Origin: Calothrix sp. PCC 7103
GTDB taxonomy: Bacteria > Cyanobacteriota > Cyanobacteriia > Cyanobacteriales > Nostocaceae
Assembly (NCBI RefSeq): GCF_000331305.1
Contig: NZ_KB217478.1
Coordinates: forward strand, 1,967,679-2,031,678
DNA: 64,000 bases
Direction: 5' to 3'
Shown: one piece after another, positions 1 through 64,000 of the stretch
Layout of the letters: the number at the start of each line of letters is the position of its first letter
Numbering within the stretch: the first letter of the stretch is position 1
Notes under the pieces: generated by a model
The model's input: the letters and a program-made list of their open reading frames with translations, nothing else
The model's database searches: none
Told to the model about the DNA's origin: nothing
Made by a program: the position numbers and the translations under genes

Positions 1-31
1 ATTACTAGCATTTATTCGTAAAAGTCAGGAT

Positions 32-418
32 ATGACTAATATCACAGGCGAAAAAATGCACGTCAATCATATCTTGATGGCAATGGAAACAATAAGACAG
101 AAATATAATTTACCAATAGTAACATATAGATTTACACCTGATATTCCAAATCAGCGTTACAATATTAATTTAGAATTAACACAAGCCATACAAGAAAATC
201 TCTTACAGCAAATAATTACAGCAATAGACTTGCAACTGTGTAATGTCAACTGCGAATACGAACAAAAGCGACAATCAAAACGATTACATTTGCCTTGTCT
301 ATATATAATGCCTCCCGGTTGGTCAGAAGCAGAAACAAGAAAAGAAATAGCAAATTCTAAACGAAACGTCCAATATAAATGGAAAATACTTTGCCCTGAA
401 AATAATAAAAATCTATGA
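32..418 (+). CDS. Hypothetical protein, 128 aa
   Basis: Unrecognised soluble protein with no signal peptide or membrane segment and no motif I can name. Two possible starts: the ATG at 32, or a second ATG at 56 that would shorten it by eight residues; no strong ribosome-binding site decides between them. Its TGA stop overlaps the ATG of the next gene (ATGA), so the two are probably co-transcribed and translationally coupled. The C-terminal third is rich in Lys, Arg and Glu. Function unknown. Confidence 0.6.
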   Translation: MTNITGEKMHVNHILMAMETIRQKYNLPIVTYRFTPDIPNQRYNINLELTQAIQENLLQQIITAIDLQLCNVNCEYEQKRQSKRLHLPCLYIMPPGWSEAETRKEIANSKRNVQYKWKILCPENNKNL

Positions 419-861
419 AAAATTACCCTTTTACCTTATGGCTTCTTAGCTTCTTATTTTTCCTTCGAGTCCTTGGCCAAATTTTAGTAGCATATTTCAA
501 CGTTTCATTTCTACCAGCAATGCCTCATTGGTACTCAGGATTGCTACCCTATCCAATTCTACTACCAACACAGATATTAATTATAATATTACAAATAAAA
601 ATCAATATAGATATCTCTAGAAATAAAGGCTTTTTTATCAAACCAAGACGTAAATTCGGCAAAATACTGCAATGGTTCAGCTACCCTTATGCTGGTATTA
701 TGGCTATACGATATGTAATAACTATGTACTTATATCCAGAACGTCGTTGGTTTGGAGAAGGAACTATTCCGATTATTTTTCATTTTGTGCTAGCTGGATA
801 TTTATTTACTTGGGGTAAATTTTATGAGAGTATCTCAAATTGTCATGAGTCACCGGAGTGA
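415..861 (+). CDS. Hypothetical small integral membrane protein, 148 aa
   Basis: Starts inside the stop codon of the upstream gene (ATGA overlap), indicating coupling. The protein shows about four hydrophobic stretches (near residues 7-28, 42-60, 90-108 and 120-135), with a positively charged loop around residues 70-85, so it is probably an inner- or thylakoid-membrane protein. I do not recognise a family. The pair with the preceding soluble protein suggests a small two-gene unit of unknown role. Confidence 0.65.
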   Translation: MKNYPFTLWLLSFLFFLRVLGQILVAYFNVSFLPAMPHWYSGLLPYPILLPTQILIIILQIKINIDISRNKGFFIKPRRKFGKILQWFSYPYAGIMAIRYVITMYLYPERRWFGEGTIPIIFHFVLAGYLFTWGKFYESISNCHESPE

Positions 862-898
862 AGCATCTCGTAAATATTAAAAGCTTAAAGATTTTAGC

Positions 899-940
899 CT
901 TCGGCAAATGCTCCGCATTACGCTGCGCTCAAAATGACAA
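899..940. repeat. Short intergenic repeat (TCGGCAAATGCTCCGCATTA type)
   Basis: GC-rich tract reading TCGGCAAATGCTCCGCATTA then CGCTGCGCTCAAAATGACAA, lying between two genes in AT-rich sequence. Its composition resembles dispersed intergenic repeats of filamentous cyanobacteria. Only one copy is seen in this window, so the repeat call rests on resemblance. Confidence 0.35.
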
Positions 941-971
941 TTTATAATGAAAGTTTATATTTATATCAGAA

Positions 972-2729
972 ATGGCAAGAAAAAGAATAAAAAAAATACT
1001 TATAGTGACTTTCGCTTTGCTCGCATTGCTGACTACAGTTATCATCGCAGCATTTCCAATACTGGCGCCATTTTTCTTAGCTTCACAATTAGGATTTCGT
1101 TCTGCTCAATATGGAGTTTGGGTAGAGTATAGTGTTCCTCTTACTGCTTCTGATGGTATGAAGCTAGTAGCAAATATTTACCATCCGCAACAACTTGAAA
1201 AAACTCCCACTATTTTAGTACGAATACCTTATTCTAAAAATTTTACAAATACTACGTTTGCAAATGTAGTTGGACACATGTGGGCAGCGCGCGGTTATAC
1301 TGCTGTAATTCAAGGTACAAGAGGACGTTATGAATCTGAGGGAGAATATTTTCCGTTCAAAACTGAGAGGGCAGATGGAATAGAAACTTTAGCCTGGTTA
1401 GAAAAACAGCCTTGGTATAATGGCAAAATTGGCATGTGGGGTGGTTCATATTTTGGATATACACAATGGGTTTTAGCGGATAAAGTAAATCCTGGTTTAT
1501 CAGCGTTAATTTTGCAAATTTGTAGCACAGATTTTCATCGCATGTTTTATCCTGGAGGCGCCTTTTCTCTAGAAAGCGCTTTATATTGGGCAGTTACCAG
1601 CTATGGTAAACAAGATAATCCTGCATCTGAGAAAGTGCTACAACCAGGATATAAAGGTTTTCCCCTAATTAAAGCAGATGACCGAGCAGTCCAAGATATT
1701 CCATTTTTCAACGACTGGGCAAGTCATCCAGAAAAAGATGACTACTGGAAAACGATAGATGGTGAAAATAGAACCAAGACTTTACAGGCGCCAGCGTTAT
1801 TAATGGCAGGATGGTACGACCCATTCTTACCCACCCAAATTGCGGACTTTCTCAAAATTAAAAGCGAAGCTAAACCTCTTGTTGCTAAAAACACTCGTTT
1901 AATTATTGGTCCTTGGGCACACGCGCGTACCGTTACTTTCCCCAATGGTTACACACCTCGCAACTACCGTCTCGAAAGTTTGGCGCCAACTATTCCTTGG
2001 TTCGATGAGCATCTACTCGATAATCCTAAATCAGAAGCTCCTGTACAAATTTATGTCATGGGTAAAAATATATGGCGCCAAGAGCAAGAATTTCCTTTAG
2101 ACCGTACTATTTATACAAACTATTATTTGCATAGTAATGGTAAAGCCAATACTCTTAGCGGTGATGGAGTATTAAATTCAACACAACAAAAGACAGAAAT
2201 ACCAGACACTTACATATATAATCCATTAAATCCAGTACCAAGTGCAGGTGGTACAATGCTTGGACCGCGAGCTGGAATTGAAAGGCAAAACGATATAGAA
2301 AATCGAAATGATGTTTTAAATTACACAACAGCACCTCTACAAGAAGATATTGAAGTTACTGGGCCAATACGTCTAATTTTATACGTGTCAACAACGGTGC
2401 CCTCGACCGACTTTACAGCAAAACTCGTTGATGTTTATCCCGATGGTTCCGCTTATAACGTTTCTGAAGGAATTATTCGCAGACAATACACTTCAAAGCA
2501 ACCAACTCAAATAGAAATTGAATTATGGGCAACAAGTCAGGTTTTCTTTAAAGGACATAAAATCAGGCTAGAAGTATCCAGTAGTAATTATCCGCGATTT
2601 GACCGTAATCCAAATACTGGGCGCCCAATTGCCACCGAGATTAACCCAGTTACCGCAAAACAAGTTATTTACCATGAGCAAAAGGCGCCTTCATATCTTG
2701 TACTACCAATTATCCCTAATTCTACGTAA
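972..2729 (+). CDS. CocE/NonD family alpha/beta hydrolase (peptidase S15-like), 585 aa
   Basis: Predicted serine hydrolase of the CocE/X-Pro dipeptidyl-peptidase S15 class, acting on an ester or peptide substrate that cannot be named here. A hydrophobic N-terminus (about residues 8-38) after a basic KRIKK segment suggests a membrane anchor or signal peptide. The nucleophile elbow GMWGGSYFG puts the catalytic serine at Ser159; Asp283 in GWYDPF and His317 in IGPWAHAR complete the expected triad. The C-terminal 250 residues form the jelly-roll domain typical of the class. The ATG at 972 is chosen because the basic-hydrophobic N-terminus begins there; an overlapping ORF from 947 is in another frame and is a shadow. 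Confidence 0.85.
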   Translation: MARKRIKKILIVTFALLALLTTVIIAAFPILAPFFLASQLGFRSAQYGVWVEYSVPLTASDGMKLVANIYHPQQLEKTPTILVRIPYSKNFTNTTFANVVGHMWAARGYTAVIQGTRGRYESEGEYFPFKTERADGIETLAWLEKQPWYNGKIGMWGGSYFGYTQWVLADKVNPGLSALILQICSTDFHRMFYPGGAFSLESALYWAVTSYGKQDNPASEKVLQPGYKGFPLIKADDRAVQDIPFFNDWASHPEKDDYWKTIDGENRTKTLQAPALLMAGWYDPFLPTQIADFLKIKSEAKPLVAKNTRLIIGPWAHARTVTFPNGYTPRNYRLESLAPTIPWFDEHLLDNPKSEAPVQIYVMGKNIWRQEQEFPLDRTIYTNYYLHSNGKANTLSGDGVLNSTQQKTEIPDTYIYNPLNPVPSAGGTMLGPRAGIERQNDIENRNDVLNYTTAPLQEDIEVTGPIRLILYVSTTVPSTDFTAKLVDVYPDGSAYNVSEGIIRRQYTSKQPTQIEIELWATSQVFFKGHKIRLEVSSSNYPRFDRNPNTGRPIATEINPVTAKQVIYHEQKAPSYLVLPIIPNST

Positions 2730-2803
2730 TTAACGAGAAATTTAATGCTTGACGCAGAAATGTCAAGCTATACGACGAGTGATTAAATTTACATGAGTTC
2801 CTG

Positions 2804-2832
2804 AGTCAAAATCAAGAAACTTTAGGTATAAT
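2804..2832 (+). promoter_or_regulatory. Possible sigma70-type promoter for coaD
   Basis: A perfect TATAAT lies at 2827-2832, about 33 bases before the coaD GTG. The matching -35 (around 2804, GAGTCA) is poor, so this rests mainly on the -10 box. Confidence 0.3.
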
Positions 2833-2864
2833 TATCACTCTAGCAATTAAAGGCGCCTGCAACT

Positions 2865-3443
2865 GTGATTGCCATTTATCCCGGAAGTTTTGACCCCGTA
2901 ACACTGGGGCACCTCGATATCATCCAGCGTGGTGCGAAGCTGTTTGAACGAGTTATTGTAGCTGTGCTGCGTAACCCGAACAAAACACCTCTTTTTACAG
3001 TACAAGAGCGAATTGAACAAATTCGTAAATCAACCAAGCACCTACCAAACGTTGAAGCTGATAGCTTTGATGGGCTGACTGTAAACTATGCCCAAATGAG
3101 AAGAGCGGGAGTACTACTGCGGGGATTGCGTGCAATTTCCGATTTTGAAGTAGAACTTCAGATGGCACATACCAACAAAACGCTCTCAACCCAAATTGAG
3201 ACTGTTTTTTTGGCGACATCAAATGAATATAGTTTTTTAAGTAGTAGTGTGGTAAAAGAGATTGCAAAGTTTGGTGGCTCTGTCAATCACCTTGTTCCTC
3301 CGCACGTTGCCCTAGATATATACCAATGCTACGCCCACAAATACCAATCGAACCAGAGCATAACGGAAAACATCCCATCCCTCACGAATCCTCCAATGGA
3401 CACGCTGTTGGAAATTCACAACCAGACGGAGATGGATGTTTAA
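2865..3443 (+). CDS. coaD: Phosphopantetheine adenylyltransferase (CoaD)
   Basis: Penultimate enzyme of coenzyme A synthesis: transfers AMP from ATP to 4'-phosphopantetheine. The cytidylyltransferase-type nucleotide motif is at the start ([12 protein letters not shown], residues 5-16), followed by the family signatures [12 protein letters not shown] and SSSVVKEIA. Translation starts at GTG 2865, since the conserved core begins at residue 2. At 192 residues it is about 30 longer than the usual ~160. The extra C-terminal tail lies entirely where the next gene overlaps it by 118 bases in another frame, so the tail is probably not conserved. Confidence 0.95.
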
Positions 3444-4003
3444 ATATTCAGCAATCACTCGACCATTTTGAGGAAATGATTATTGCTGGTTTCCGGATTC
3501 CATTTACTAAACGTACCGTAGTAGATGAGGAAAAACTGTTTGACCTACTTGATTATATTCGTTCGACGTTACCAGCAGCGTTTAACGAAGCAACGGTTAT
3601 AACCCAGCAAAGAGAGGAAATTTTGCTCGAAGCAGAAGAGTATGGACAGCGTATCGTAGATGCTGCTCAAACCAAGCGCGCGCAAATTTTAGAAGAAAGT
3701 GATATTATTCGGCAGGCAGAACACGAAGCTTTAGAGTTAAAGCGGAAAGTTCAACAAGAGTGTGAATTATTAATGCAGCAAACTCTCGAAGAAATTGACC
3801 TGAAACGTCGTCAATGTCAACAAGAAATAGAACAAATGCGAGCTGAAGCTATGACAGAAGCTCAACAAATAGAACAAGGCGCCGATGATTATGCTGATAG
3901 TGTTCTCGAACACATCGAGCAAGATTTAAATGAAATGACACGTATCATCCGTAATGGGCGCTCCTCACTCAATGCATCAAGATTACCACCGAAGAAAAAA
4001 TAG
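3326..4003 (+). CDS. Coiled-coil DivIVA/ATP synthase subunit b-like protein, 225 aa
   Basis: Predicted cytoplasmic coiled-coil protein: from about residue 90 to 205 the sequence is an almost unbroken Glu/Gln/Ala/Arg helix with heptad character, like DivIVA or AtpF stalk proteins. Before it sits a short ordered segment ([19 protein letters not shown]). The first ATG (3326) lies 118 bases inside coaD; the next in-frame ATG is at 3476, just after the coaD stop. I favour 3326, because as I remember them cyanobacterial homologues begin MLRPQIPI, but the alternative is real. Co-transcription with coaD is likely; a role in cell shape or division is inference only. Confidence 0.75.
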
Positions 4004-4009
4004 TAAAAA

Positions 4010-4044
4010 GGGAAAAGGATAAATAATATCTCTATCTTTTTCCC
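4010..4044. terminator. Bidirectional terminator between convergent genes
   Basis: GGGAAAAGGATA (4010-4021) pairs with TATCTTTTTCCC (4033-4044) with one G-U pair. The A-rich and T-rich stem flanks let it act for both the plus-strand coiled-coil gene and the minus-strand oxoamine synthase. Confidence 0.6.
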
Positions 4045-4062
4045 CTATTAATCATTGTATTA

Positions 4063-5349
4063 TTAGGCAGCAACCAGTTCCTGTTTAATGACACCGTATT
4101 TTAAAGCTAGTTCGTGAAGCACGCTTACAGTAGTATCAATTTGTTCTATACTATGCGCTACGCTTAATATAAAGCGAATTCTTCCTTCGTGAGCTTTTAC
4201 GGCTGGATATACAACTGATACAGAAAATATTCCACGTGCGAATAATTCTTTGTTAAATGCTTGTAGCTTTTCGACATCAGGTATAAAAATAGGAATAATA
4301 GGACTTTGGCTCGTGCCCAAATCAAATCCTAAATTTGTTAAACAATGTCGCATATACTGATTTTTATCATGTAATAACTTAATCAAGTACGGGTTATTTT
4401 CAATTTCTTCAAGAGACGCTAGAATCGCTGCTGCATCACCTGGAGTTAGGCAAGCTTGGAATATATATGTATTAGCTCGCCATTGTAGTAACGGGATGTA
4501 TTTTGACTTTGTTGCAACAAATCCACCAATTGATGCGGTAGCTTTTGATAGGGTTGCAGCGATAAAATCAATTTCTTCAACAATTCCTAAATGCGAACAG
4601 TAGCCAGCGCCATTTTCGCCGTATATCCCAAAAGTGTGTGCTTCATCAACATAAACTAAAAATTTATATTTTTGCTTAAGAGCGACTATTCCTTGTAACG
4701 GCGCCAAGTCCCCACTCATTGAATAAGCAGATTCAACAACCACAAAAATATTTTGATATTCACTTTTGTACTTGCTTAATTTTTGTTCTAAATCATGCAA
4801 GTTATTGTGTTTGAATGTTACCCACTTTTTGCCGGATAATTTGACTCCATCAATAATTGATGCATGACATTCACGGTCAAATATTATTAAATCCTTTTTT
4901 CCTGGTAGAGCTGAAAGACATCCTAAATTAGCAGTAAAACCAGTTGGAAATAGTTGAACGGTTTCCTTACCCATCAAACGTTGCAGCTTCAGTTCAACTT
5001 GTTTATGCAAAATTGACATTCCACCAGATAATGCTGATGTCCCAGAACCAGTACCATACTCTTGGACAGCTTTGCAAACTTTATCAATAACTGTTTGATT
5101 GCGGTTTAAACCTAGATAATGATTAATACACCAAAGAATACACTCAGTTGTATTTCCATTACTAGAAACAACAGAAGCTTGAACGTTACTACCTGATAGA
5201 GTATATTTATTACTAGAATACAAGCCTTGTTCGACTTGATTTAGGTAATGTTGATACAAGTAATCGGATAGCTGTTCTATATCGGTTACTCCTTGGCTTT
5301 CTAGCTGCTTCATGTAGCTAAGAATAGGTACTGAAACTCCTGTCTGCAT
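4063..5349 (-). CDS. PLP-dependent alpha-oxoamine synthase-like aminotransferase (BioF/KBL/SPT type), 428 aa
   Basis: Fold-type I PLP enzyme of the alpha-oxoamine synthase group, which condense an amino acid with an acyl-CoA or acyl carrier thioester with loss of CO2. Seen motifs: GTGSGTSALSGG (residues 99-110), His162 in RECHASI, DEAHTFG with Asp235 and His238, and the Schiff-base lysine Lys269 in ATLSKATASIGG. The length fits the family, with about 60 extra N-terminal residues. No biotin genes or recognisable polyketide or sphingolipid genes lie beside it, so the substrate cannot be fixed; serine palmitoyltransferase-like and CqsA-like activities remain possible. It stands alone, convergent with the coiled-coil gene. 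Confidence 0.8.
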   Translation of the reverse strand: MQTGVSVPILSYMKQLESQGVTDIEQLSDYLYQHYLNQVEQGLYSSNKYTLSGSNVQASVVSSNGNTTECILWCINHYLGLNRNQTVIDKVCKAVQEYGTGSGTSALSGGMSILHKQVELKLQRLMGKETVQLFPTGFTANLGCLSALPGKKDLIIFDRECHASIIDGVKLSGKKWVTFKHNNLHDLEQKLSKYKSEYQNIFVVVESAYSMSGDLAPLQGIVALKQKYKFLVYVDEAHTFGIYGENGAGYCSHLGIVEEIDFIAATLSKATASIGGFVATKSKYIPLLQWRANTYIFQACLTPGDAAAILASLEEIENNPYLIKLLHDKNQYMRHCLTNLGFDLGTSQSPIIPIFIPDVEKLQAFNKELFARGIFSVSVVYPAVKAHEGRIRFILSVAHSIEQIDTTVSVLHELALKYGVIKQELVAA

Positions 5350-5732
5350 ATATTTTATTAATTATTAAGTGCAAAATCATAAATTTTGTTTACAATACTG
5401 ACAAGCACCTTTTAAATTTAACTTTTAGTGTTGCTTCATTACAGTAAACTACCTTGGTAGTCAAATTTGTAAGCTAGAAATTACTGAACTTTATTTAAAA
5501 CAATATTAAAGATGATGCTGCTAGTAACCGCATAATTATGAAGTTATCAACATGCTGCAAAAACACTCATGGCTACCAAGTATAAGTTACAACGGCGCAA
5601 TACCAAGAATAAAAAGCTTTCGTCAAGCTTTAATCTAGTTTGTAAAAGGCGCCAACAGGTATGATACAAATCCCAAATAGCTGGGAATAATATTGTAAAG
5701 ACTAAGGGTTACAAGTATAGGTAGTACTATTT
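5350..5732. other. Divergent intergenic region, 383 bp
   Basis: AT-rich spacer between the divergent oxoamine synthase and hybrid kinase genes; promoters of both must lie here. It holds one GGCGCC site (5649). I see no open frame of note, no tRNA and no clear operator. Confidence 0.4.
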
Positions 5733-8700
5733 ATGATAGGCGCAAATATAAATATTCCTGGTTATCAGATTGGTGAACAAATTTACCTGGGTTCGAGAAC
5801 GGTTGTTTGTCGCGCGCTGCGGCAGAAAGACGGACAAGCTGTTGTCGTCAAGCTGATGCGAAATGAATATCCGAGTTTCAGCGAGTTGGTGCAGTTTCGC
5901 AATCAATATATAATTAGCAAAAATCTCAATATTGATGGAATCGTTCATCCTTTAGATATATTGACACACGGGACGTTATACGCATTGGTTATGGAAGACT
6001 TTGGTGGAATCTCGCTAGACGAGTATTTCCAAGAGTCGAAGGCAAAAGTCATAGATGATTTTTTTGATGTTGCAATTAAAATAGTGACAGCACTTTCGTC
6101 ACTTCACCGTGAACGTATTATTCACAAAGATATTAAACCAGCAAATATTTTAATTAATCCTCACACGAAACAAGTTAAGATAATCGACTTTAGTATTGCG
6201 TCACTACTACCACGCGAAACGCAACAACTTAAAAACCCCAACACTCTAGAAGGAACGCTTGCGTATATTTCCCCAGAACAAACAGGAAGAATGAATCGTG
6301 GTATTGATTACCGTACAGATTTTTATTCTTTGGGTGTAACATTTTATAAATTACTTACACAGCAACTGCCTTTTACAAGTACTGACCTTGTAGAGTTGAT
6401 ACACTGTCACATAGCCAAGCAACCTTTAAGCGTTACTAATCTGAACCCAGAAATTTCCCAGGCACTTTCAGATATTGTCGCAAAACTGATGGCAAAAAAT
6501 GCTGAAGACCGTTACCAAAGTACATTAGGTATAAAATACGACTTAGAACTGTGTGAATTAAATTGGAAGTCAAGTGGCAAAATTGCACCATTTAAATTAG
6601 GGCAACGCGACATTCCTCAGTGTTTCATCATACCGGAGAAGCTTTATGGTCGCGAAACCGAAGTTGCGAAACTACTTTCGGCATTTAAAAGGGTTAGCAG
6701 CGGTAAGTGCGAATTGATGTTAGTCAAAGGAGTTTCTGGAATTGGTAAAACTGCCGTAATTAACGAAGTTCATAAACCAATAGTTGAAGCACGCGGGTAT
6801 TTTATAAAAGGTAAGTACGACCAATTTCAGCGTCAAACACCCTACTCCGGGTTTGTACAAGCATTACGTGATTTGATAACACAGTTGCTTAGTGAGAATA
6901 ATTCCCAAATTCAATATTGGAAAAGTAGTATTTTAGAAGCATTGGGAGAAAATGCTCAAGTTATTATTGACGTAATACCCGAACTAGAAGCAATTATTGG
7001 GTCTCAACCTCCTGTAATGATACTCGAAGGTAACGCCGCTCTAAATCGCTTTAATTTATTGATTCAGAATTTGATTAAAGTTTTTGCGACAGCAACACAT
7101 CCACTTGTAATTTTCCTTGATGACTTACAGTGGGCTGATTTAGAATCACTCAAATTAATACAATTATTGATGGGTAACGCAAATACAAAACACATGCTAA
7201 TAATTGGCGCCTATCGTAGTAACGAAGTATTTGCAACTCATTCATTAACTTTAACACTAGAAAATATTCGTAAAAAAGCTAATGACATAGTTCATGAAAT
7301 TACACTAAACTCACTTCAAGAAAATGATGTCAATTATTTAGTCGCGGAAAGTTTAAATTGTTCGCTAGAAATAGCTTACACATTAACTAGCTTGATGTAT
7401 CAAAAAACACAAGGTAATCCGTTCTTCTGTACACAATTTTTAAAAATGCTACATGAAGAAAAACTACTTGATTTTAATAATGAAAAGCATTATTGGCAGT
7501 GCAATATTTCTAAAATTCGAGAGCTAACGTTAACGGATGATGTTGTTGAGTTAATTACGCAACACTTAAGAAAACTACCGCCTTCAACTCAGAATATTAT
7601 TAAATTAGCTGCATGTATAGGCAACAAATTTGATTTAAACACTGTTGCAATAGTTTCAAAAACACTTCCAAATCAAGCAGCTACCGACTTATGGTTAGCA
7701 TTGCAAGAAGGTTTGATTTTACCAGTAAACGAAGCTTATAAATTTTACCAATTTGATAATGGAAATGAAATCAACCAATTTAATAAAATAGATAATAGTC
7801 ACGTAGAAAAACTTAAAAAAATTACGATTGAATATAAGTTTTTGCATGACCGAGTACAGCAAGCAGCTTATGAATTAATTTTAGATGAGCAAAGAAAGTA
7901 TACACATTTAGAAATTGGTAAGTTAATACTTGAAAATACTCTAGATGAACAACTACAAGAAAGAATATTTGATATTGTAAATCATCTCAACCTTGGGGTT
8001 GAATTAATTGAAGCAGTTTCAGAAAGAGAACAGCTAGCACAGCTAAATTTAGTTGCAGCTAAGAAAGCGAAAAAGGCAACAGCATTTGCTTTAGCAAATG
8101 AATACGTAACGCGAGGAATTGAATTACTTTCTTTACATTGCTGGGAAAAATATGAACTAGGTTTTTCACTATACCGTGAAAAGGCAGAAATAGAGTATTT
8201 AAATGGTAATTTTCCTGAGTGTACTAATACTATAAATACAGCTATCCAACATTTACAGAACAATACAGATAAAGCTGATTTGTATAATATACTAATGGTA
8301 AGCTATACACTTCAGTCCAAATATAATGATGGCATAGCAATAGGAAGAGAAGCGCTAAATCTATTAGGTATTGACTTACCCCAGGTTAATTTACAGCAAG
8401 AATTTATAAATGATTACACAAAAATAAAAGAATCTTTGGCAGAAAAAGATATTACCTCTTTAATTGATTTACCAATAATGCAGTCACGGGAAAATATTAT
8501 GGCTGCAAAATTACTAATGACTTTAGACCCCCCAACTTATATTGCAGTTCCAGAGTTATACCCGATTGTATGCTTTAAACTTGTCCAATTATCACTTCAG
8601 TATGGAAATACACCTGAATCTGCAAAAGGATACTCAAACTATGGTATAATTTTATGCTCGTTTTTCCAGGATTATAAATCAGGATATGAATTTGGTGTAC

Positions 8701-55104: not shown

Positions 55105-57261
55105 TTAATTAGTCAATTGTTCTTGTAATGGTGGGATTCTAATAATAAATGTTGTACCTTCACCCGGCGCCGAAAGGCATTGTATAGAGCCATTATGTTT
55201 TTGGGTAACTATTTGATGACAAATAGATAAACCCATACCTGTACCTTTACCGACTGGTTTAGTGCTAAAGAAAGGATCGAATATTTTAGCTAGTGCTTCT
55301 TTAGGGATTCCAATTCCGTTATCAGAAATGCAAATAGCTATGTTATTATTGTTTGTAAGTTCAGTGGCTATGTATATTGTCGGTTTATTATTTATCGAGT
55401 TGTTTACTAGTGATGCGTTGGTAATTAAAGATTTATCAAATGCATCGATTGCGTTAGTTAGAAGATTCAAAAATACTTGATTCAACTGTCCTGCATAACA
55501 TTCAATTAAAGGTAAATCACCGTACTCTTTAACTACTTCAATATGGAGACGATTATTTTGTTTGAGACGATGTTCTAATATCATTAAAGAACTATCAATA
55601 CCTTCGTGTATATTAACTTTTTTATACTCTGCTTCGTCCATTCTGGAAAAATTACGCAGGGAAAGGACTATTTTTTTGATACGGTCTGCCCCAATTTTGA
55701 TAGATTTAAGTAATTTGGGCAAATCTTCCATTATATATTCTAGTTCGGTAGTTTCAATTTGAGGTATACTTTGATTATTTATAATTGAACGATTTAAATT
55801 TTCTTGGTAAGCGATAATTAAGTTAAATAAGTATTGAACATATTCACGCGCAGGTTCAATATTCCCATATATAAAACTAATCGGGTTATTTATTTCATGT
55901 GCAATTCCTGCTACGAGTTGTCCTAAAGATGACATTTTTTCATTGTGAATAAATTGGGTTTGTGTACGCTGTATTTCTTGAAGCGCATTTGCTAATTCTT
56001 GTGATTGCTGTTTTATTTTTTCTTGCGCTAGTTTTTGCTCGGTAATATCAATAAATATGCCATTATGCAATGCATGTCTAGATTTTTCTCCAACTGGTTC
56101 AGATTGACCGTAAATCCACTTTTGCTTACCAGAACGAGTAATAATGCGAAATTCATAAACCCAAGGTGCATGTTGATGTACAGCAGAGTTTATAGAAAAT
56201 ATTAATGAAGTAAAATCTTCTGGATGAATCAAAGGCAAAATAGGATTACTCCCTTCTGTAAGCTCTGATTCATCTAACTCAAATATCATTTGAGCTTTAG
56301 AGCTTAAATAATTAAAATGTGATTCTCCAGTTTTTAAGTCAAACTCATGCTGATAAATTGTTCCAGGTACTAAGCTATTGATATTAATCAGACGTTGTTC
56401 TCGTTCTCTCAATGCAATTTCTGCTTGCTTACGCTCGCTAATATCACGCACAACTGCTAAAAGGTGAGGTTTTCCACTATAAATACATCTACTAGCGTTA
56501 ACTTCCACGTCAAAATTAGTACCGTCTTTACGTATATCAACAGCTTGGCACCTATAATCATTCCCATTTCTAACAGTTTCCATAAATTGCTCAAATTTAT
56601 GCTGGGAGTCAGGATGAATGTATGCTGTTGGTGGTAATTTAATAAATTCGTCGTAAGAATAACCGTGCATTTTACAAGTTGCAGGATTAACTTCTACTAA
56701 ATTTGCTGTTTCCATATCGAAAATGAATATTCCGTCGGTGACAGCTTCAAAAATATTACGGTATTCTATAGCTTTTTTTTCGAGTGCTTTTTTCGTTGCC
56801 ATCTCGACTGTAACATCACGTGAAATACCCACAGTCATGACAACTTCGCCATTTTCATTGTGTACAGCAGATTTTGTGGTATTCAAGATACGCACTTTTC
56901 TATCATGTCTTAACGCGCGTTCTTTGGGAATAACTAGAGTTTGTCCGGTTTCAAAAACATACTGATCGTCTTTTATGTATTTTTGCGTATGTTCGGGTTC
57001 ATCAAAAGGTATATCAGTAATACCTTGTAACTCATCCTTGGTCATGCCATAAAATTCACAAAATGCTTTATTCGCCCATATAATTTGTGAATCGGCGCCT
57101 TTAATTAGAACCAAGTCATTGATAGCATCTAATATTTGATGATATGTACTTTCTGTCTGGCGTAGTGCTGCTTCTAACTGCGTTTGCTGTGAGAAGGCGG
57201 TTTCTAGCTCAGAAATGCGCGCTTGCAAAGTATTTAATTTATGAAGCAGTTCAGTAGACAT
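55105..57261 (-). CDS. PAS-domain sensor histidine kinase, 718 aa
   Basis: Soluble hybrid-free histidine kinase with an N-terminal coiled coil (1-36), three PAS domains (about 38-150, 165-275 and 290-408, the last two with PAC ends ISERKQAE and ITEQKLAQ), a HisKA domain with His455 in [12 protein letters not shown], and HATPase motifs (DNGIGIP, GKGTGMGLSI). No membrane segment, so it senses an internal signal. The kinase core is close to that of the giant kinase at 5733 (both have [10 protein letters not shown] and GNIEPA), indicating shared ancestry. No partner regulator adjacent. Confidence 0.92.
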   Translation of the reverse strand: MSTELLHKLNTLQARISELETAFSQQTQLEAALRQTESTYHQILDAINDLVLIKGADSQIIWANKAFCEFYGMTKDELQGITDIPFDEPEHTQKYIKDDQYVFETGQTLVIPKERALRHDRKVRILNTTKSAVHNENGEVVMTVGISRDVTVEMATKKALEKKAIEYRNIFEAVTDGIFIFDMETANLVEVNPATCKMHGYSYDEFIKLPPTAYIHPDSQHKFEQFMETVRNGNDYRCQAVDIRKDGTNFDVEVNASRCIYSGKPHLLAVVRDISERKQAEIALREREQRLININSLVPGTIYQHEFDLKTGESHFNYLSSKAQMIFELDESELTEGSNPILPLIHPEDFTSLIFSINSAVHQHAPWVYEFRIITRSGKQKWIYGQSEPVGEKSRHALHNGIFIDITEQKLAQEKIKQQSQELANALQEIQRTQTQFIHNEKMSSLGQLVAGIAHEINNPISFIYGNIEPAREYVQYLFNLIIAYQENLNRSIINNQSIPQIETTELEYIMEDLPKLLKSIKIGADRIKKIVLSLRNFSRMDEAEYKKVNIHEGIDSSLMILEHRLKQNNRLHIEVVKEYGDLPLIECYAGQLNQVFLNLLTNAIDAFDKSLITNASLVNNSINNKPTIYIATELTNNNNIAICISDNGIGIPKEALAKIFDPFFSTKPVGKGTGMGLSICHQIVTQKHNGSIQCLSAPGEGTTFIIRIPPLQEQLTN

Positions 57262-57551
57262 AATAGCACACTCAAATATTTTTTTGCTATGAAAGCTTAT
57301 TTATAGAGTGCCCAGGTTTTAAGCAAAATACACATAATAGCGTAAATCTTCATTGATAAAGCTGGATGGGAGAGGAAAAAACAGGTTGTTTCAAATAATG
57401 AAACGACATAGGGACTTGGACAAAGTATGGCTTAAGGTAGAAGCGAATATACGTATCGCAGTTCAAACAGTCTTAATACCCGTGCAACAAAAGCTTCACA
57501 ACGAGTATCTAGATTGGAAGTACTTCTTCTAAAATATATCGCTTACACCAA

Positions 57552-58808
57552 ATGTTAAACAAAGAACCAAACGACCAATATAGTAACGAAAGTAACAAAT
57601 CAAATAATCAAACTCTCAGTTCTAAGGGTCATCGACTTTGGGGAAGAGCTATTTTTAATCTATCCCTGGTATTAGTCGGGTCAGGTATGACGCTCGCAGG
57701 TGGTTATATTGCTGGAAACCAACAAAAAGATGCATCGAATCTTGTTGTTGGGTCGGTGAAAGCTGCTTCTGCACCCGTTGGGGAGGCAAATTTTGTAACC
57801 AACGTTGTGAACAAAGTTGGACCTGCGGTTGTTCGGATAGATTCTGCGCGTACCGTCAAAGCTTCGTTACCTGATGAATTCAATGACCCGTTTTTCCGTC
57901 GCTTTTTTGGCGCCCAAGGACAAATTCCTTCGCAAAAGCGAGTCGAGCGTGGTACAGGTTCAGGGTTTATACTCAGTGCAGATGGTCGCATTTTGACGAA
58001 TGCCCATGTAATTGACGGCGCCGATACAGTAAAAGTAACGTTAAAAGATGGTCGTAGTTTTCAAGGTAAAGTTATTGGTAAAGACGAATTAACTGATGTT
58101 GCGGTTGTAAAGATTCAGGCAAACAACTTACCAACAGTAACAATTGGAAATTCCGACCAACTGCAAGCTGGTGAATCAGCTATTGCCATTGGTAATCCGC
58201 TTGGTTTGGATAATACAGTTACTACAGGGGTAATTAGTGCTACTGGTCGTAGTAGTAATTCAATTGGCGCCCAAGATAAGCGTGTTAGTTACATTCAAAC
58301 CGATGCAGCAATTAACCCAGGTAACTCAGGTGGTCCATTGCTCAACTCTAGGGGTGAAGTTGTGGGGATGAATACCGCTATTATTCAAGGAGCGCAAGGT
58401 TTAGGATTTGCAATTCCAATTGCCACAGCACAGCGCATCTCGAACCAATTAATTGCAACAGGTAAGGTTCAACATCCTTACTTGGGTATTCAAATGCAAG
58501 CTTTAAGCCCAGAGTTAAAAGAAAATATTAACTCTGACCCTAATAGCGGTTTAAATGTTGACAGCGATAAAGGTGTTTTGATACGTCGGGTAGTTCCCAA
58601 CTCTCCCGCAGCGCAAGCAGGAATTCGTGCAGGTGACATTATTGAAAAACTCAATGGTCAACCCGTCGCTGATGCATCGAGCGTTCAAAAAGTCGTCGAA
58701 GATAGCAAAATCGGCGCCGATTTACGTATGGATGTACGTCGCAACGGTCAAAATGTAGTTATTTCTGTTCGTCCTGGAGCTTTCCCAACTCAAGCACAAC
58801 CACAATAA
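57552..58808 (+). CDS. HtrA/DegP-type serine protease (HhoA/HhoB/HtrA group), 418 aa
   Basis: Periplasmic or thylakoid-lumen quality-control protease. A membrane anchor lies near residues 35-54, followed by a trypsin-like domain with His152 (LTNAHVID), Asp182 (ELTDVAVV) and Ser259 (NPGNSGGPL), then one PDZ domain (about 305-405, GVLIRRVVPNSPAAQAGIRAGDII). It cannot be assigned to HhoA, HhoB or HtrA by sight. Start ATG 57552 gives the usual cytoplasmic tail before the anchor. Confidence 0.93.
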   Translation: MLNKEPNDQYSNESNKSNNQTLSSKGHRLWGRAIFNLSLVLVGSGMTLAGGYIAGNQQKDASNLVVGSVKAASAPVGEANFVTNVVNKVGPAVVRIDSARTVKASLPDEFNDPFFRRFFGAQGQIPSQKRVERGTGSGFILSADGRILTNAHVIDGADTVKVTLKDGRSFQGKVIGKDELTDVAVVKIQANNLPTVTIGNSDQLQAGESAIAIGNPLGLDNTVTTGVISATGRSSNSIGAQDKRVSYIQTDAAINPGNSGGPLLNSRGEVVGMNTAIIQGAQGLGFAIPIATAQRISNQLIATGKVQHPYLGIQMQALSPELKENINSDPNSGLNVDSDKGVLIRRVVPNSPAAQAGIRAGDIIEKLNGQPVADASSVQKVVEDSKIGADLRMDVRRNGQNVVISVRPGAFPTQAQPQ

Positions 58809-58838
58809 CAATTACCTACGGTACACTCAGTGAACGCA

Positions 58839-58867
58839 ATGATGTAGAGACGTTACTCTACATCATT
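58839..58867. terminator. Hairpin after the HtrA gene
   Basis: AATGATGTAGA (58839-58849) pairs exactly with TCTACATCATT (58857-58867). It contains a GTAGAGAC half-site, linking it to the palindrome family. No strong T-run. Confidence 0.55.
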
Positions 58868-59100
58868 GTAATTTTAAATACGCTCAAACTCTAGAATCGC
58901 TCAATATGTCAAGGTAAACGAGATAAGTAAATCTTATATTTTGCATTAGTTTTTTATTGTCAAGTACTCTTGCTAAATTGTTACAAAAATTTTAATATCT
59001 TAACAAAACAAACCCTGTTTATGACAAAAACCTGGTTTATAAGGTTTTAAGTTGTAAATATAGTAAAAGCTTTATTAATTATTACATTTTCTCCCAATCT

Positions 59101-59131
59101 CCTCGATTCACTCAAAGAATCGAGGTTTTTT
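59101..59131 (+). terminator. Strong Rho-independent terminator with no obvious gene
   Basis: CCTCGATTC, seven-base loop, GAATCGAGG (59117-59125), then six T. It lies 290 bp after the HtrA stop. Either the HtrA transcript has a long 3' tail or a small RNA from 58.9-59.1 kb ends here. Confidence 0.8.
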
Positions 59132-59320
59132 GTCTATTTCAAAGAAACCGGGTTTCTAGGATTTGAGGTTTTTTGAAGCGCTATCTATCGTCAAATTTTA
59201 TTTTTGTAATGGAAATAAATCTAAGCTTTATAGCATACCAATAGGGTTACAAATAATATCAAACGGGTGGTGTGCAAGAAGACGGGGCAAAATCCAAAAC
59301 AAAGTGTAAAGCAGAAATTG

Positions 59321-59596
59321 CTAATTCAGGTATAGTGACAAGCTTAAAGCAAGAACGGCGCCTGCGACAGGAACAGCTGTGCCAAACTCTAATCTACGCT
59401 TTTTGAGAATCTCAAGCACAGAGATTGGAATGATGAGGGGCCACAGAATAGTAGTGATGCAACACATAACGAAAGATAAGAAAGTATCTTCTACAGACGA
59501 ACTGGGGTGACGCAACGCAAATATTATCCAATTAAAGAAAAAGCAGAAGGTCACTAGCACATAACTAATAAACATAATCAGTTCAGTTTTGTTCAC
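59321..59596 (-). CDS. Hypothetical small membrane protein, 91 aa
   Basis: Three predicted membrane helices (about 8-28, 40-62, 73-90) and a short polar loop (RHPSSSVEDT). No recognised family. The start ATG 59596 gives MNKTELIMFISYVLVTF. Isolated in a gene-poor stretch; function unknown. Confidence 0.6.
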   Translation of the reverse strand: MNKTELIMFISYVLVTFCFFFNWIIFALRHPSSSVEDTFLSFVMCCITTILWPLIIPISVLEILKKRRLEFGTAVPVAGAVLALSLSLYLN

Positions 59597-60318
59597 CGTG
59601 GACTCTCCTTAATATTGTGGTATTGACATCAGATAGAAGGCGAAATTAGCTGTATTGAACATATACGCGCTTATTGAATAGATGTTAGTTGAATTCTTGA
59701 GACTAATAAATCAGTACATTCACTTATTTTAACTCACTATACATCAATCCAAAATTATACTTGTTGACTTATTTTTACTTAACTAACTTTTAGTCTAAAA
59801 TTTACAAGGACAAAGTGTAAATATCATCATCTAATTAGTTTTGGATAATAATCGGTCAAATTCTTACTTACAAAGACTTATGTCGTCAAAAATACTTCAT
59901 ATTAGCTTTATATTTCATTCAAAAAAACCTGTATAATTTGTATTATTTTTTTCAACCAAAATAGTAATAACATGTAGTTACTGAATACTCTCTTCGTAAA
60001 TAAAGAGACTAGACAGGATGAAAATAATAGTTATAATTACATCTTGAGAAGGTATTAAAGATATTTTTTTCCTTGCCGAAAATCATTAGTAATGCTTATA
60101 CATGCAGTGTGGTGTTACGTGAGTTACCAATTACACAACATAAACACTATTAAACAATTAACTTGATAGTATTATACAAAATCAATCATATGTTCAAGTT
60201 CTTGCCGAGCTTGAAAAAGGTTTGTAATAATAAATGCTAACTATAGATTTGTTGTATTGAAAATGAACGAAGCAAGGTTATTTAGGTAATGGAGTTGACT
60301 TGACTTAAAAGGCGCCAG
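59597..60318. other. AT-rich intergenic region, about 720 bp
   Basis: Very AT-rich, no open frame of note. Isolated promoter-like boxes occur (TTGACT at 59763; TATAAT near 59933) but no convincing pair. No tRNA or clear hairpin. May carry an untranslated RNA or just regulatory sequence. Confidence 0.35.
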
Positions 60319-60420
60319 TTAATCGTGATAGTTGTCGTGTGGAAATAGGTAGGCAAGGGCAGCCCAACCAGATACAGTCAGTAGACTAACTAGAAATGCA
60401 GATAAGAACAAAGTGAACAT
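60319..60420 (-). CDS. Candidate small single-helix membrane protein, 33 aa
   Basis: Frame from ATG 60420 reads MFTLFLSAFLVSLLTVSGW, then AALAYLFPHDNYHD and stop: one membrane helix with a short acidic and His-containing tail, the profile of cyanobacterial photosystem or NDH-1 small subunits. It does not match any small subunit I know. No strong ribosome-binding site, so it is only a candidate. Confidence 0.4.
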   Translation of the reverse strand: MFTLFLSAFLVSLLTVSGWAALAYLFPHDNYHD

Positions 60421-60578
60421 AGGATTAGCCAAATAGATTAGGTAATGAGTCATTAGCGCCAAGCTTTGGTTTTATCTTTAAATTCTCTTTAGCACTATAT
60501 TCCCAAGCTACCAATCAGATATGACATCGCTATGGCCACCCTATGTCAATAGCTTGTAGATAAGATAGTTGAAGATAC

Positions 60579-61685
60579 TTAATATGCTGGAAGTAAAGAA
60601 AAGCGAAATGTGCTACCAATACCTAATTCGCTATCAACTTCGATTTTACCACCTTGTAATTCAACTAAGCGACGGGTAATAGCAAGCCCAATTCCTGTTC
60701 CTCCTGAGTTACGGTTACGCGATTTATCCGCACGCCAAAAGCGTTCAAACACATGGGGTAAGTCTTGGGTTGCAATTCCTACTCCTGTATCTACCACTGC
60801 AATCCACAGTTGTTCATCAAACCATGTACGTATAGAAATTGAACCGCTACAAGTATAACGAATGGCATTACCAATTAAGTTGATTAATATTTGTTCGGTG
60901 CGGTCGATGTCAGCGAGTACAAGCGGTATTGATGGCGAAGACTCTAAAAGCAAAACTGGGCCATCATCAAGTAGCTGGTCTTTGAATCTTTGTACAAGTG
61001 ATTCAAGTAATGGGTATACATTAACTGGTTTGATATTAGTTGGTAGATAACCTGCTTCTGCTTTTGAAAGTTCTTGCAAATCGTTGACTAATCTTTCCAG
61101 GCGCCTGGTTTCTTTTATCAACTGCTGGTAAACTTGCTGTTGTTCATCGATACGTCCATCAGCAAGTTCTTCTAAGTATCCACGTACTACTGTGAGTGGG
61201 GTTCTAAGTTCATGGGTCATATCGCTAACTAAATCACGGCGCCGAACCTCAACATCTTGGATACTAGCAGCCATGCGATTAAAACTACTTCCCAAACGAT
61301 TAAATTCAGGAATATCTGACAGGGGTAGTCGCGCATTAAATTGTCCAGCAGCAAATTTTTGGGTGATAGACTCCATTTCAGTTAGCTGCTGCATTATTCG
61401 TAGAGAAACCCAATAACTCAATCCCCCAGCAGCACTGGCGCCAACTAACAATGACCAGAGATTACTACTTTGCCAAGCAGAGTCAAAAGAATGCACCAAG
61501 TCAGTTTTGATGTTGTCAATATTAAATCCTTTGCTCTCTAACCTTTGAAGATGCACCCCGAAATAGTGTGGTGATGAAATTTTGCTAATAACCACATAAC
61601 TTAATACACCAACTATCATGACTACAAGGTGCGAGAGAAACAGACGCGATGCTAAAGGCAAAGATTTTCGCTTACGCACTTTCAT
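60579..61685 (-). CDS. Membrane sensor histidine kinase (HAMP-HisKA-HATPase), 368 aa
   Basis: Sensor kinase with two membrane helices (about 13-33 and 78-98) around a short periplasmic loop of about 45 residues, a HAMP linker (about 98-150), HisKA with His158 in SDMTHELRTPLTV, and HATPase motifs ([26 protein letters not shown]). The start ATG 61685 gives a basic N-terminus (KVRKRKS). Lies 42 bp after the response regulator on the same strand; the two form a two-component system. Confidence 0.93.
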   Translation of the reverse strand: MKVRKRKSLPLASRLFLSHLVVMIVGVLSYVVISKISSPHYFGVHLQRLESKGFNIDNIKTDLVHSFDSAWQSSNLWSLLVGASAAGGLSYWVSLRIMQQLTEMESITQKFAAGQFNARLPLSDIPEFNRLGSSFNRMAASIQDVEVRRRDLVSDMTHELRTPLTVVRGYLEELADGRIDEQQQVYQQLIKETRRLERLVNDLQELSKAEAGYLPTNIKPVNVYPLLESLVQRFKDQLLDDGPVLLLESSPSIPLVLADIDRTEQILINLIGNAIRYTCSGSISIRTWFDEQLWIAVVDTGVGIATQDLPHVFERFWRADKSRNRNSGGTGIGLAITRRLVELQGGKIEVDSELGIGSTFRFSLLPAY

Positions 61686-61727
61686 TATTTTTTTATGTTT
61701 AATTTTTAATTTTTTAGGGTAAAAATT

Positions 61728-62435
61728 CTAAGGTGCGGTATCTTCAAATTTATATCCAACTCCAACAACAGTTTTGATAAAAGTTGGATTTGCGGGGTCT
61801 GGTTCAATTTTCTTTCGCAAGCGTGCTACATGGGTATCTACAACTCGCTCATCTCCAAAGAAATTATCGCCCCAGAGCTTATCAATTAATTGACTACGGT
61901 TCCAAACACGACCAGGGTTACTGAGTAAAGTACTTAGAAGATTAAACTCTAAAGTTGTTAAATCTAGTTCTCCAACTGGCTTTGAGTCAAGCAAACGGTT
62001 AGCGATGCGTTGCTCTAAATCAACTAAAAAATGCTTAGTGCGGTGTTCTTGTCGCTGTACTGAGGAGCGCATACTGCGACGTAACAGCGCTCTCGTGCGT
62101 GCCACAAGTTCTCTAGGGCTGAATGGTTTTGCCATGTAATCATCGGCGCCTGTAGAAAGGCCAATTACACGATCAATTTCTTCTGCCTTAGCAGTCAATA
62201 TCATTATATATGGGTCTTTGGCGCCAGGTTTTTGGCGAATACGCGCGCAAACCTCAAGTCCATCAAGTCCAGGAATCATTAAATCCAGAATAATTAAATC
62301 GGGTGGAAGTTCTGTAAACATTCGTAACGCGGTTACGCCATCGCGACTGACACGACAAGAAAACCCTTCTTTTTCGAGAGTCAGTTGGATTAACTGAGCA
62401 ATTTCTGCTTCGTCTTCAACAATTAAAATATCCAT
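61728..62435 (-). CDS. OmpR/PhoB-family response regulator, 235 aa
   Basis: Receiver domain with the acidic pocket (VEDEAE), phospho-acceptor Asp51 (IILDLMIPG), Thr/Lys switch residues (LTAKAEE, AKPFSPRE), then a winged-helix DNA-binding domain (LTTLEFNLLSTLLSNPGRVW, VDTHVARLRKKIEPDP, VVGVGYKFE). First gene of the regulator-kinase operon. Target genes and signal cannot be inferred from this window. Confidence 0.95.
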   Translation of the reverse strand: MDILIVEDEAEIAQLIQLTLEKEGFSCRVSRDGVTALRMFTELPPDLIILDLMIPGLDGLEVCARIRQKPGAKDPYIMILTAKAEEIDRVIGLSTGADDYMAKPFSPRELVARTRALLRRSMRSSVQRQEHRTKHFLVDLEQRIANRLLDSKPVGELDLTTLEFNLLSTLLSNPGRVWNRSQLIDKLWGDNFFGDERVVDTHVARLRKKIEPDPANPTFIKTVVGVGYKFEDTAP

Positions 62436-62669
62436 TCAAGTTTAAGGCAATTCTGTACAAGGCAGCGTCTTAAATCGCGGTTTTATTGTAATCTATAAAT
62501 CTCAAGTAGTCGTGTATTAGAACTTATTTTTGTTTTTCTCTTGAAGATTATGTAGAAATATTGCGAAAATTTAAAGATTTTAAGTTTTTATCGTGTAGAT
62601 AAGAAATCGCGGTTAGCTTTGAAGAAAGAAATTTTCACTCACAAAAATTTTGTTACCTACTATACACTT

Positions 62670-62825
62670 ATGAATTCTTGTCCCTGTTGTTCTGACAGAC
62701 TTTTGCGACACGTCCGAAAGACTGAAGTTTACTGGTTCTGTCGTAACTGTCGCCAAGTTATGCCTGTGCTAATCTGGAAAAAACACGCATCTTCATTAGA
62801 ATCAGTAAAGACTATAACCAGCTAG
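62670..62825 (+). CDS. Small zinc-ribbon protein, 51 aa
   Basis: Two CxxC pairs, CPCC near residue 4-7 and CRNC near 25-28, on a short basic protein (SDRLLRHVRKTEVYWFCRNCRQVMP). The ATG at 62670 sits right before the first pair; an upstream ATG at 62619 would add 17 residues and is less likely. Such tiny Zn-ribbons are common in cyanobacteria; function unknown. Divergent from the response regulator, about 230 bp apart. Confidence 0.65.
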   Translation: MNSCPCCSDRLLRHVRKTEVYWFCRNCRQVMPVLIWKKHASSLESVKTITS

Positions 62826-62835
62826 TTGACTTAAT

Positions 62836-63702
62836 TTAAGATGCTTCGCTTTCTAGAACAGCTTTGGCTTTGAGAAGTTGTTGACGGTGTTCGTCGCTAA
62901 GAGTTGGGTATTCCAAATCGAGTTGTTTGAGCTTGCTACAAATAATGTCGGCAACTGCAAGACGTGCAAACCACTTGTGATTACTTGGGATAATATGCCA
63001 AGGCGCCCAGTCTGTACTAGTATGATTGAATACGTCCTCATAAGCTTCCATATAATCGTCCCAATATGCGCGTTCTTCAACGTCGCTCATAGAAAACTTC
63101 CAATTTTTTTCAGGCAATTCAATTCGCCGCAAAAACCGCCTTTTTTGTTCAGATTTTGATATATTTAGAAAAAATTTGAGAATAACAGTACCATTGTTTG
63201 TCAAGTATTTTTCATAATTATTAATATCCTCAAATCGCTGTTTCCATATTTTTTTACCTGGTGAATGAGGCAAACGCTCGTTTAGCAGAATATGAGGATG
63301 AACACGAGCAATTAGTACTTCTTCGTAATACGAACGATTAAAAATACCAATTCGACCGCGTTCGGGTAGAGCTTTTGTACTGCGCCATAAAAAATCATGG
63401 TCTAATTCTTCTGTACTTGGAGACTTAAAGCTGTAAACTTGACACCCTTGAGGATTAATTCCTGACATCACATGTTTTATTGTACTGTCTTTGCCTGCTG
63501 CGTCCATTGCTTGGAATATTATTAATAGAGCGTATTGATCATGAGCATAGAGAATATCTTGGTATTTTCCTATTCGCTCGATACCTACTCGTAGTTTTTC
63601 CGAAGCATCGGTTTTATCTCCATATTGCGCTGTGTATTCAGGATCACAATCTTTGAGAGAAAATTTGGCGCCTGGTTTTGCAATAAAATTGTCGTGGTTC
63701 AT
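62836..63702 (-). CDS. Polyphosphate kinase 2 (PPK2) family protein, 288 aa
   Basis: Polyphosphate:nucleotide phosphotransferase using polyphosphate to phosphorylate nucleotides. Walker A MDAAGKDS (residues 66-73), the PPK2 signature IGIFNRSYYEEVLIARVHP, and Walker B-like segments. Length near 290 matches one-domain PPK2. The class (I, II or III; ADP or AMP as acceptor) cannot be set from sight. Single gene. Confidence 0.92.
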   Translation of the reverse strand: MNHDNFIAKPGAKFSLKDCDPEYTAQYGDKTDASEKLRVGIERIGKYQDILYAHDQYALLIIFQAMDAAGKDSTIKHVMSGINPQGCQVYSFKSPSTEELDHDFLWRSTKALPERGRIGIFNRSYYEEVLIARVHPHILLNERLPHSPGKKIWKQRFEDINNYEKYLTNNGTVILKFFLNISKSEQKRRFLRRIELPEKNWKFSMSDVEERAYWDDYMEAYEDVFNHTSTDWAPWHIIPSNHKWFARLAVADIICSKLKQLDLEYPTLSDEHRQQLLKAKAVLESEAS

Positions 63703-63839
63703 ATTATGCCTTAGAGTGGGTCAGGTTTACATATGCCCAATTCTTGTAACTTGATTCTTACATCATCCCACTCGGCGCCGCAGTAATAGTACTTTTTATC
63801 AAGAATGTTCGCTAGGTAGTAAATAATTTTTCTTTTCTC

Positions 63840-63920
63840 TTGTGGAGCGGGCATCCTACCCACCCAGTAAGTAATGTGTGAGAAATGTATGGGACGGGCA
63901 AGGATGCCTATCCTACAAGG
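63840..63920. repeat. TGGAGCGGGCATCCTACCCA / GGGACGGGCAAGGATGCC repeat pair
   Basis: CTTGTGGAGCGGGCATCCTA and the inverted GGGACGGGCAAGGATGCCTA about 50 bp later; same family as the single hairpin at 22551. Could form a long stem between PPK2 and the gene at the right edge. Confidence 0.5.
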
Positions 63921-63934
63921 ATGGTTAATTATGT

Positions 63935-64000
63935 TTAGATTACGTTTGCTACTGCTGCGTATTTGGTAGCTAAATCAGCTGGCGCCATTGTTTCGTATGG
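63935..64000 (-). CDS. 3' end of an unidentified gene, 21 codons seen
   Basis: The right edge enters a minus-strand frame ending PYETMAPADLATKYAAVANV-I and stop at 63935. A GGCGCC site lies inside it. Too short to identify. Confidence 0.5.
   Translation of the reverse strand, partial: PYETMAPADLATKYAAVANVI

Follow-up and report, generated by a model that had tools for sequence, protein, structure and literature searches.

The window examined here, a 64,000-base stretch of the Calothrix sp. PCC 7103 genome, contains 102 copies of the palindrome GGCGCC, against a mean of 5.55 and a maximum of 11 in 100 dinucleotide shuffles. No other hexamer in the window comes near this degree of over-representation; the next palindrome, CGCGCG, was observed 20 times against 5.7 expected. 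When ORFs of at least 120 amino acids were considered and overlapping ORFs removed, 80 of the 102 sites were placed within ORFs and the other 22 were not wholly inside them, which corresponds to 1.61 sites per kb of ORF and 1.55 sites per kb of the remaining sequence. An earlier sequence-only reading had described about 100 sites running evenly through genes and spacers where a handful would be expected, and the counts agree with it on each point. Its statement that most copies have T/A or C/A flanks was overstated, as the flanks are mixed (TTGGCGCC, 23 of 102; CAGGCGCC, 17; TGGCGCCA, 21) and the extended form TTGGCGCCAA is found just 5 times; the conserved unit is the 6-mer GGCGCC. The sites, the extended copies, and the stretch used for ortholog comparison are located as follows.

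1064..63986, no strand: GGCGCC sites, iterated palindrome, n = 102 (first at 1064-1069, last at 63981-63986)
1980..1989, no strand: extended copy TTGGCGCCAA, genome position C7:1969658
15541..15550, no strand: extended copy TTGGCGCCAA, genome position C7:1983219
19631..19640, no strand: extended copy TTGGCGCCAA, genome position C7:1987309
27348..27357, no strand: extended copy TTGGCGCCAA, genome position C7:1995026
48810..48819, no strand: extended copy TTGGCGCCAA, genome position C7:2016488
20001..40000, plus strand: stretch for the ortholog search and site-turnover tests, with 6 congeners and 22 other family members

The gaps between GGCGCC sites have a coefficient of variation of 0.75 within the window, and of 0.90 when 13 further stretches are added to it; since long gaps are cut by the stretch ends, regular spacing is not claimed. 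The window also encodes a protein of 1,817 amino acids with kinase, AAA, GAF, and histidine-kinase ATPase domains (5733-11186) and holds dispersed repeats (29861-30112 and 38185-38257) with many matches of approximately 74 to 90% identity in this genome and those of its congeners.

Across the whole genome (11.58 Mb), GGCGCC occurs 17,704 times, or once per 654 bp, with an observed/expected ratio (O/E) of 21.9 in a 324-kb sample and about 21 across samples. The reversed word CCGCGG, taken as a control, has 8 copies in the entire genome and is avoided in its own right (0 observed against 41 expected on both strands of the 324 kb), so the fair yardsticks are the shuffle and first-order expectations. 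In the same 324 kb, GTCGAC, GCATGC, and GTGCAC are also at zero, AGCGCT has an O/E of 1.10, and CGCGCG is enriched as well, though more weakly than GGCGCC (4.3-fold). Among the forms of GRCGYC, enrichment is limited to GGCGCC (O/E of 0.04 for GACGTC and 0.36 for GGCGTC and GACGCC). HIP1 (GCGATCGC) is missing from the window, as the sequence-only reading had noted; only 0.34 copies are expected there, so this zero is weak evidence by itself. Genome-wide, HIP1 numbers 163 (14 per Mb), many of them clustered. The proposal that this genome has swapped its iterated palindrome therefore holds at full scale, with GGCGCC enriched outside the window as well and HIP1 far from equally frequent. As a GC-rich palindrome that is hugely over-represented genome-wide, at a density close to one per kb both within genes and between them, GGCGCC has the abundance and spread of a HIP. 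It resembles the HIP1 of cyanobacteria in being a GC-rich palindrome found roughly once per kb and, probably, in an association with methyltransferases, and differs from it in the word, the putative enzyme, and the positions of the sites.

The exchange of HIP1 for GGCGCC is already published for one strain and for fragments of another. Elhai 2015 (PMC4390886), a study of 97 genomes, names GGCGCC as the alternate HIP of Calothrix PCC 7103, places HIP1 there at 14 per Mb, describes two GRCGYC-type methyltransferases together with GATC depletion and a possible GATC nuclease, and reports the word again from 19 kb of D253, a close strain. It further presents exceptional HIPs as sporadic and not in clades, stresses the second enzyme copy, puts forward a G-m5C mismatch-repair model, and lists the methylated base of enzymes with GRCGYC specificity as unknown. 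HIP1 itself was reported to be maintained by selection (Xu 2018, as cited in PMC6604393). Our search on GGCGCC as a HIP or in Calothrix and on GRCGYC in cyanobacteria returned Elhai 2015 alone from the literature covered, and it turned up no account of genus-wide fixation, of a shared solitary enzyme with nuclease-linked relatives, of a deamination trace, or of constraint on individual sites. The present results share with Elhai 2015 the word, the loss of HIP1, the depletion of GATC, and the GRCGYC-type methyltransferases, and add that the word is genus-wide, that one enzyme is shared, and how the sites are substituted.

The family sample comprised 192 genomes, 7 of the genus and 185 others; the congeners are Dulcicalothrix desertica PCC 7102, Calothrix PCC 7716, NIES-4105, HK-06, FI2-JRJ7, and MAG C42_A2020_038. 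High GGCGCC counts were found in 7/7 genomes of the genus (7,475 to 20,380 copies, about one per 0.6 to 0.9 kb) and in 0/185 of the others (at most 1,053, in a genome that also holds 1,270 copies of the control word). HIP1 is reduced to 31 to 163 copies in the seven genomes, near the control word at 37 to 75, while 182 of the 185 other genomes have at least 990 and 181 have at least 1,000. The low-HIP1 exceptions outside the genus are G022 (535), G082 (30, in a 3.2-Mb genome that is 88% complete), G154 (574), and G083 (990). GATC has an O/E of 0.08 to 0.28 in all seven genomes of the genus (stretches of 60 to 484 kb), and CGATCG is likewise scarce in stretches sampled from all seven. Among 388 genomes of the class, one more strong GGCGCC candidate emerged, G410, from another family of the same order, in which CGGCGCCG occurs 78 times against 3.2 expected in 75 kb (L193-L197) and HIP1 is at background. 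G410 is like the genus in its enriched GGCGCC core and background HIP1 in the sample, and unlike it in its 54% GC and longer preferred form, as judged from the sampled part; it may be an independent case of a GGCGCC-cored HIP. One of two other genomes of its genus, sampled at 20 kb each, carries HIP1 and the other neither word. Some members of f16, a family of small genomes, are rich in GGCGCC, but these also contain many copies of the control word, and the class-wide outliers G423 and G536 were rejected, as they carry HIP1 in samples of 34 and 14 kb.

Methyltransferases were surveyed as PF00145 matches, of which there are 15 in the PCC 7103 genome and 9 to 17 per congener, fragments counted. 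Clustering of the fetched matches, with several fragments and lower-scoring ones left out, gave two groups of C5-methyltransferases present in 7/7 genomes, one of 370 to 398 amino acids and another that we refer to as alpha, encoded in PCC 7103 at G000:C7:8004469-8005407. Alpha is 79 to 99% identical among the congeners and forms a single clade (support, 100/99). A RuBisCO-like gene lies upstream of an alpha copy in 7/7 genomes; in HK-06, this copy is a contig-end piece (residues 1 to 85, 96% identical), and HK-06 is represented in the tree by a further copy, 83% identical, from another place in that genome. The PCC 7102 copy matches PF00145 (E value, 7.9e-66), and with the GPPCQ and ENV motifs alpha has the fold and motifs of a C5-methylase. 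More distant extra methyltransferase copies in the genus are not common to all members; PCC 7103 itself has a second GRCGYC-type enzyme with a Tn3 transposase gene nearby. In L245, L246, and L247, an extra methyltransferase lineage sits amid 53 to 64 GGCGCC per 18 to 20 kb, approximately twice the genome density. Two routes to specificity were abandoned: NCBIfam gave general families only, with dcm best, and the nearest solved structures, the HaeIII and HhaI methylases among them, matched over the N-terminal half only, for which reason specificity was not drawn from structures. Because the seven genomes share one ancestor, the link between alpha, HIP1 loss, and GGCGCC counts as a single event. 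G022, with its 535 HIP1 in 10.7 Mb, has no dominant palindrome in 80 kb (L206-L209) and no alpha relative at an E value of 1e-60, which indicates that HIP1 may be lost without replacement.

The likely target of alpha can be approached through its relatives. Alpha is 64 to 72% identical to three enzymes that have a nuclease as upstream neighbor (L090, L091, and L093), the nuclease being called by a PF09519 scan for L091 and by similarity to the L091 nuclease for L090 and L093. In Calothrix elsteri, whose genus is the best DNA match among 21 genera compared, the alpha relative is preceded by the gene for a HindVP nuclease (PF09519; E value, 1.9e-123). Fifty-one other family genomes contain an alpha relative at an E value of 1e-60; 38 of them also match PF09519, and in 37 of the 38 the match adjoins the alpha relative on the same contig. 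The family-wide profile search, which supplied a positive control, matched PF09519 in 42/192 genomes (41 above the cutoff, some as fragments or with stops) and in 0/7 of the genus; a scan of the PCC 7103 genome alone had been uninformative for want of such a control. The genus thus differs from organisms with HindVP-linked type II enzymes in having no PF09519 match and in a target word that is enriched, not avoided. Among 19 loci around alpha relatives outside the genus, 16 lack GGCGCC and 14 lack any GRCGYC form, while L102 shows no avoidance. Together with the HindVP (GRCGYC) neighbors, the missing words suggest that GGCGCC is a subset of the likely target. The GGCGCC-specific methyltransferase that the sequence-only reading proposed to look for thus has a candidate in alpha, though one whose target is probably GRCGYC and not GGCGCC specifically. 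Alpha and one nuclease-linked enzyme have most of the segment in common in which target choice usually lies in such methyltransferases. In the sister genus, a mutS gene is found beside the GRCGYC-type restriction-modification pair (L091 5556-8156, minus strand; also L090).

Median GGCGCC densities per Mb are 0.7 in genomes with both genes (n = 38), 6.1 with the methylase only (n = 13), 1.2 with the nuclease only (n = 4), 4.5 in the 130 genomes with neither, and 1,545 in the genus, in a comparison that retains five partial matches and in which members of the same genus are not independent data points. The control word CCGCGG is lower as well in genomes with both genes (3.3 versus 8.4 per Mb), so the GGCGCC deficit there is partly general. 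In the 13 family genomes with an alpha relative and no PF09519 match (3 of the 13 matches being partial or broken), GGCGCC is not raised and HIP1 is retained at 1,751 copies or more, from which it follows that alpha alone is not sufficient.

Site turnover was followed in 224 kb of PCC 7103 sequence and the orthologous DNA of six congeners (82 to 95% identical where aligned). GGCGCC is retained at 223/250, 151/170, 124/140, 236/271, 73/99, and 27/51 sites, compared with 570/881, 393/594, 344/520, 653/970, 129/383, and 42/217 for GC-rich control hexamers with a CG core in the same order of congeners. Divergence is 0.007 to 0.023 at motif positions 1, 2, 5, and 6, against 0.034 to 0.073 in the flanks. 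At fourfold sites, these four positions differ in 23/716 comparisons (0.026 to 0.043 by position) and G or C elsewhere in 2,975/14,611 (0.204), so that they are about 6 times less divergent than comparable synonymous sites. The sites are therefore kept beyond chance and protein constraint, a pattern that suggests maintenance by selection. The two central positions behave differently: divergence at positions 3 and 4 is 0.046 to 0.048, with C>T or G>A making up 73/78 differences, and at fourfold sites it reaches 0.098 and 0.078, with 54/57 transitions.

The direction of change was assessed at the 218 positions where four or more of the five close genomes could be aligned. GGCGCC is intact in all at 103 of them; 65 single-step and 7 multistep losses in one genome stand against 1 single-step and 3 multistep gains, and 39 positions show other patterns. 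Control losses and gains number 158 versus 150 for CG-core hexamers and 121 versus 63 for GC-only hexamers. C3>T or G4>A accounts for 51/65 single-step GGCGCC losses (controls, 62/158) and for 32/42 of those polarized with an outgroup (controls, 30/78), in counts pooled over four close relatives that are not independent. Such an excess is what 5-methylation of the inner C would produce, and the substitution trace suggests cytosine methylation at this base. Static counts of the deamination product GGTGCC, with O/E of 0.74 to 1.27 over the seven genomes, were weak and uneven and were replaced by the substitution counts. With gains nearly absent, either the sites are now slowly decaying or the singleton losses are mostly transient, and the sites need not be at a steady state.

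The GGCGCC sites do not stand where HIP1 stands in relatives. In two sister-genus genomes, a small sample whose members are related to each other, 27 and 29 PCC 7103 sites could be aligned; none is GGCGCC there, and most are two bases off. HIP1 sites of these genomes overlap a PCC 7103 GGCGCC in 0/15 and 0/14 cases (chance, about 0.35). In-place replacement would give many overlaps, and their absence indicates that GGCGCC lies at new positions. The HIP1 that remains in PCC 7103 is found in part in patches. Seven stretches chosen for HIP1 clusters contain runs of HIP1 and GATC and 5 to 20 GGCGCC per 14 to 20 kb; in the background, sampled as 13 stretches, the range is 29 to 55 per 20 kb. The following are rich in HIP1 and GATC and poor in GGCGCC.

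G000:C7:650001-668000, 2098001-2112000, 2860001-2877000, and 2950001-2970000: patches L045, L046, L049, and L050

The sharpest patches have clear-cut borders; one of them, L046 6315-10034, encodes a sensor kinase of 1,239 amino acids and contains 8 HIP1, 33 GATC, and 1 GGCGCC; named relatives of the kinase are mostly Nostoc among the 120 matches listed. L047, L048, and L050 are mixed patches with both words. One HIP1-bearing patch carries YcaO and PatG-like genes, another the sensor kinase. These features fit recent import of the HIP1-bearing patches from HIP1-bearing cyanobacteria, and such GGCGCC-poor patches may mark recent imports in genomes of the genus.

The reading we consider likely is that GGCGCC is an alternate HIP, in a lineage that lost HIP1 and has a solitary methyltransferase of the GRCGYC family, alpha, and that its methylated sites are held by purifying selection. 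HIP1 would have been lost in the ancestor of the genus, and alpha would have been kept as a fixed gene from a GRCGYC-type restriction-modification family without its nuclease. Alpha would methylate the inner cytosine, GG(m5C)GCC. Dense methylatable palindromes, approximately one per 0.6 to 0.9 kb, would then have arisen at new positions before the radiation of the genus, and purifying selection would since have held them against constant loss by m5C deamination. The methylated sites may mark the chromosome for replication, for repair, or for maintenance of the nucleoid.

A rival account follows the model of Elhai 2015, in which G-m5C-directed mismatch repair fixes GGCGCC-creating mutations wherever a GRCGYC methyltransferase acts, so that the sites accumulate as a side effect and are not themselves selected. 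The deamination trace would put the methylation at the inner C, directly behind a G, where that model needs it; GGCGCC alone of the GRCGYC forms is enriched; and PCC 7103 has its second enzyme of this type. That copy, however, lies near the Tn3 transposase gene, and in G101 and G127 only one such enzyme each was found at an E value of 1e-60, so two copies are unnecessary for keeping the sites. New GGCGCC sites are almost absent and constraint is limited to the six motif bases. A mismatch-repair effect of proximity was not seen overall in synonymous divergence, which stays level however far away the nearest GGCGCC lies (0.121, 0.128, 0.129, 0.124, and 0.121 in bins to 1,000 bases and 0.118 beyond, on 558 comparisons); C alone rises from 0.197 nearest to 0.230 at 600 to 1,000 bases and 0.322 beyond 1,000, and G alone falls from 0.189 to 0.179 and 0.091, though on few sites at the far end. 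Some of the turnover pattern could also come from biased repair, and we hold this account to be a minority possibility and unlikely.

The remaining alternatives are much less probable. Known DNA uptake words are similar in density and even spread, and preferred uptake of word-bearing DNA might enrich GGCGCC; yet the word has just 6 bases and no fixed flank, and the partly import-like HIP1 stretches are GGCGCC-poor, with almost none in the sharpest patches, which makes this very improbable. We give equally little credence to the idea that an active restriction-modification system protects GGCGCC as its target: the family of alpha pairs with HindVP nucleases elsewhere, but the search, limited to the PF09519 family, found no such nuclease in the genus while matching other family members, and genomes with both genes are GGCGCC-poor (median of 0.7 per Mb versus 4.5 with neither). 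An origin in codon usage or Gly-Ala-rich protein composition, or in the spread of a mobile repeat, is the least plausible of all; the frame GGC GCC is used in 176/305 coding sites, but density is equal inside and outside ORFs, the flanks diverge normally, and fourfold positions within the motif are constrained. We thus favor selection on methylated sites over repair bias, with alpha as the putative enzyme.

A whole genus in which word, putative enzyme, and positions all differ from those of HIP1 helps to separate what matters, perhaps the density of methylatable palindromes, from the particular sequence and places, and the C>T trace gives a testable prediction of the methylated base. More tentatively, and with slightly less than an even chance in our estimation, HIP function would be independent of the HIP1 sequence, with any abundant G-m5C palindrome sufficing, and the genus would be a natural replacement experiment for the role of a HIP; a methyltransferase would have been domesticated, its target built at thousands of new positions, and selection would have outlasted m5C hypermutability.
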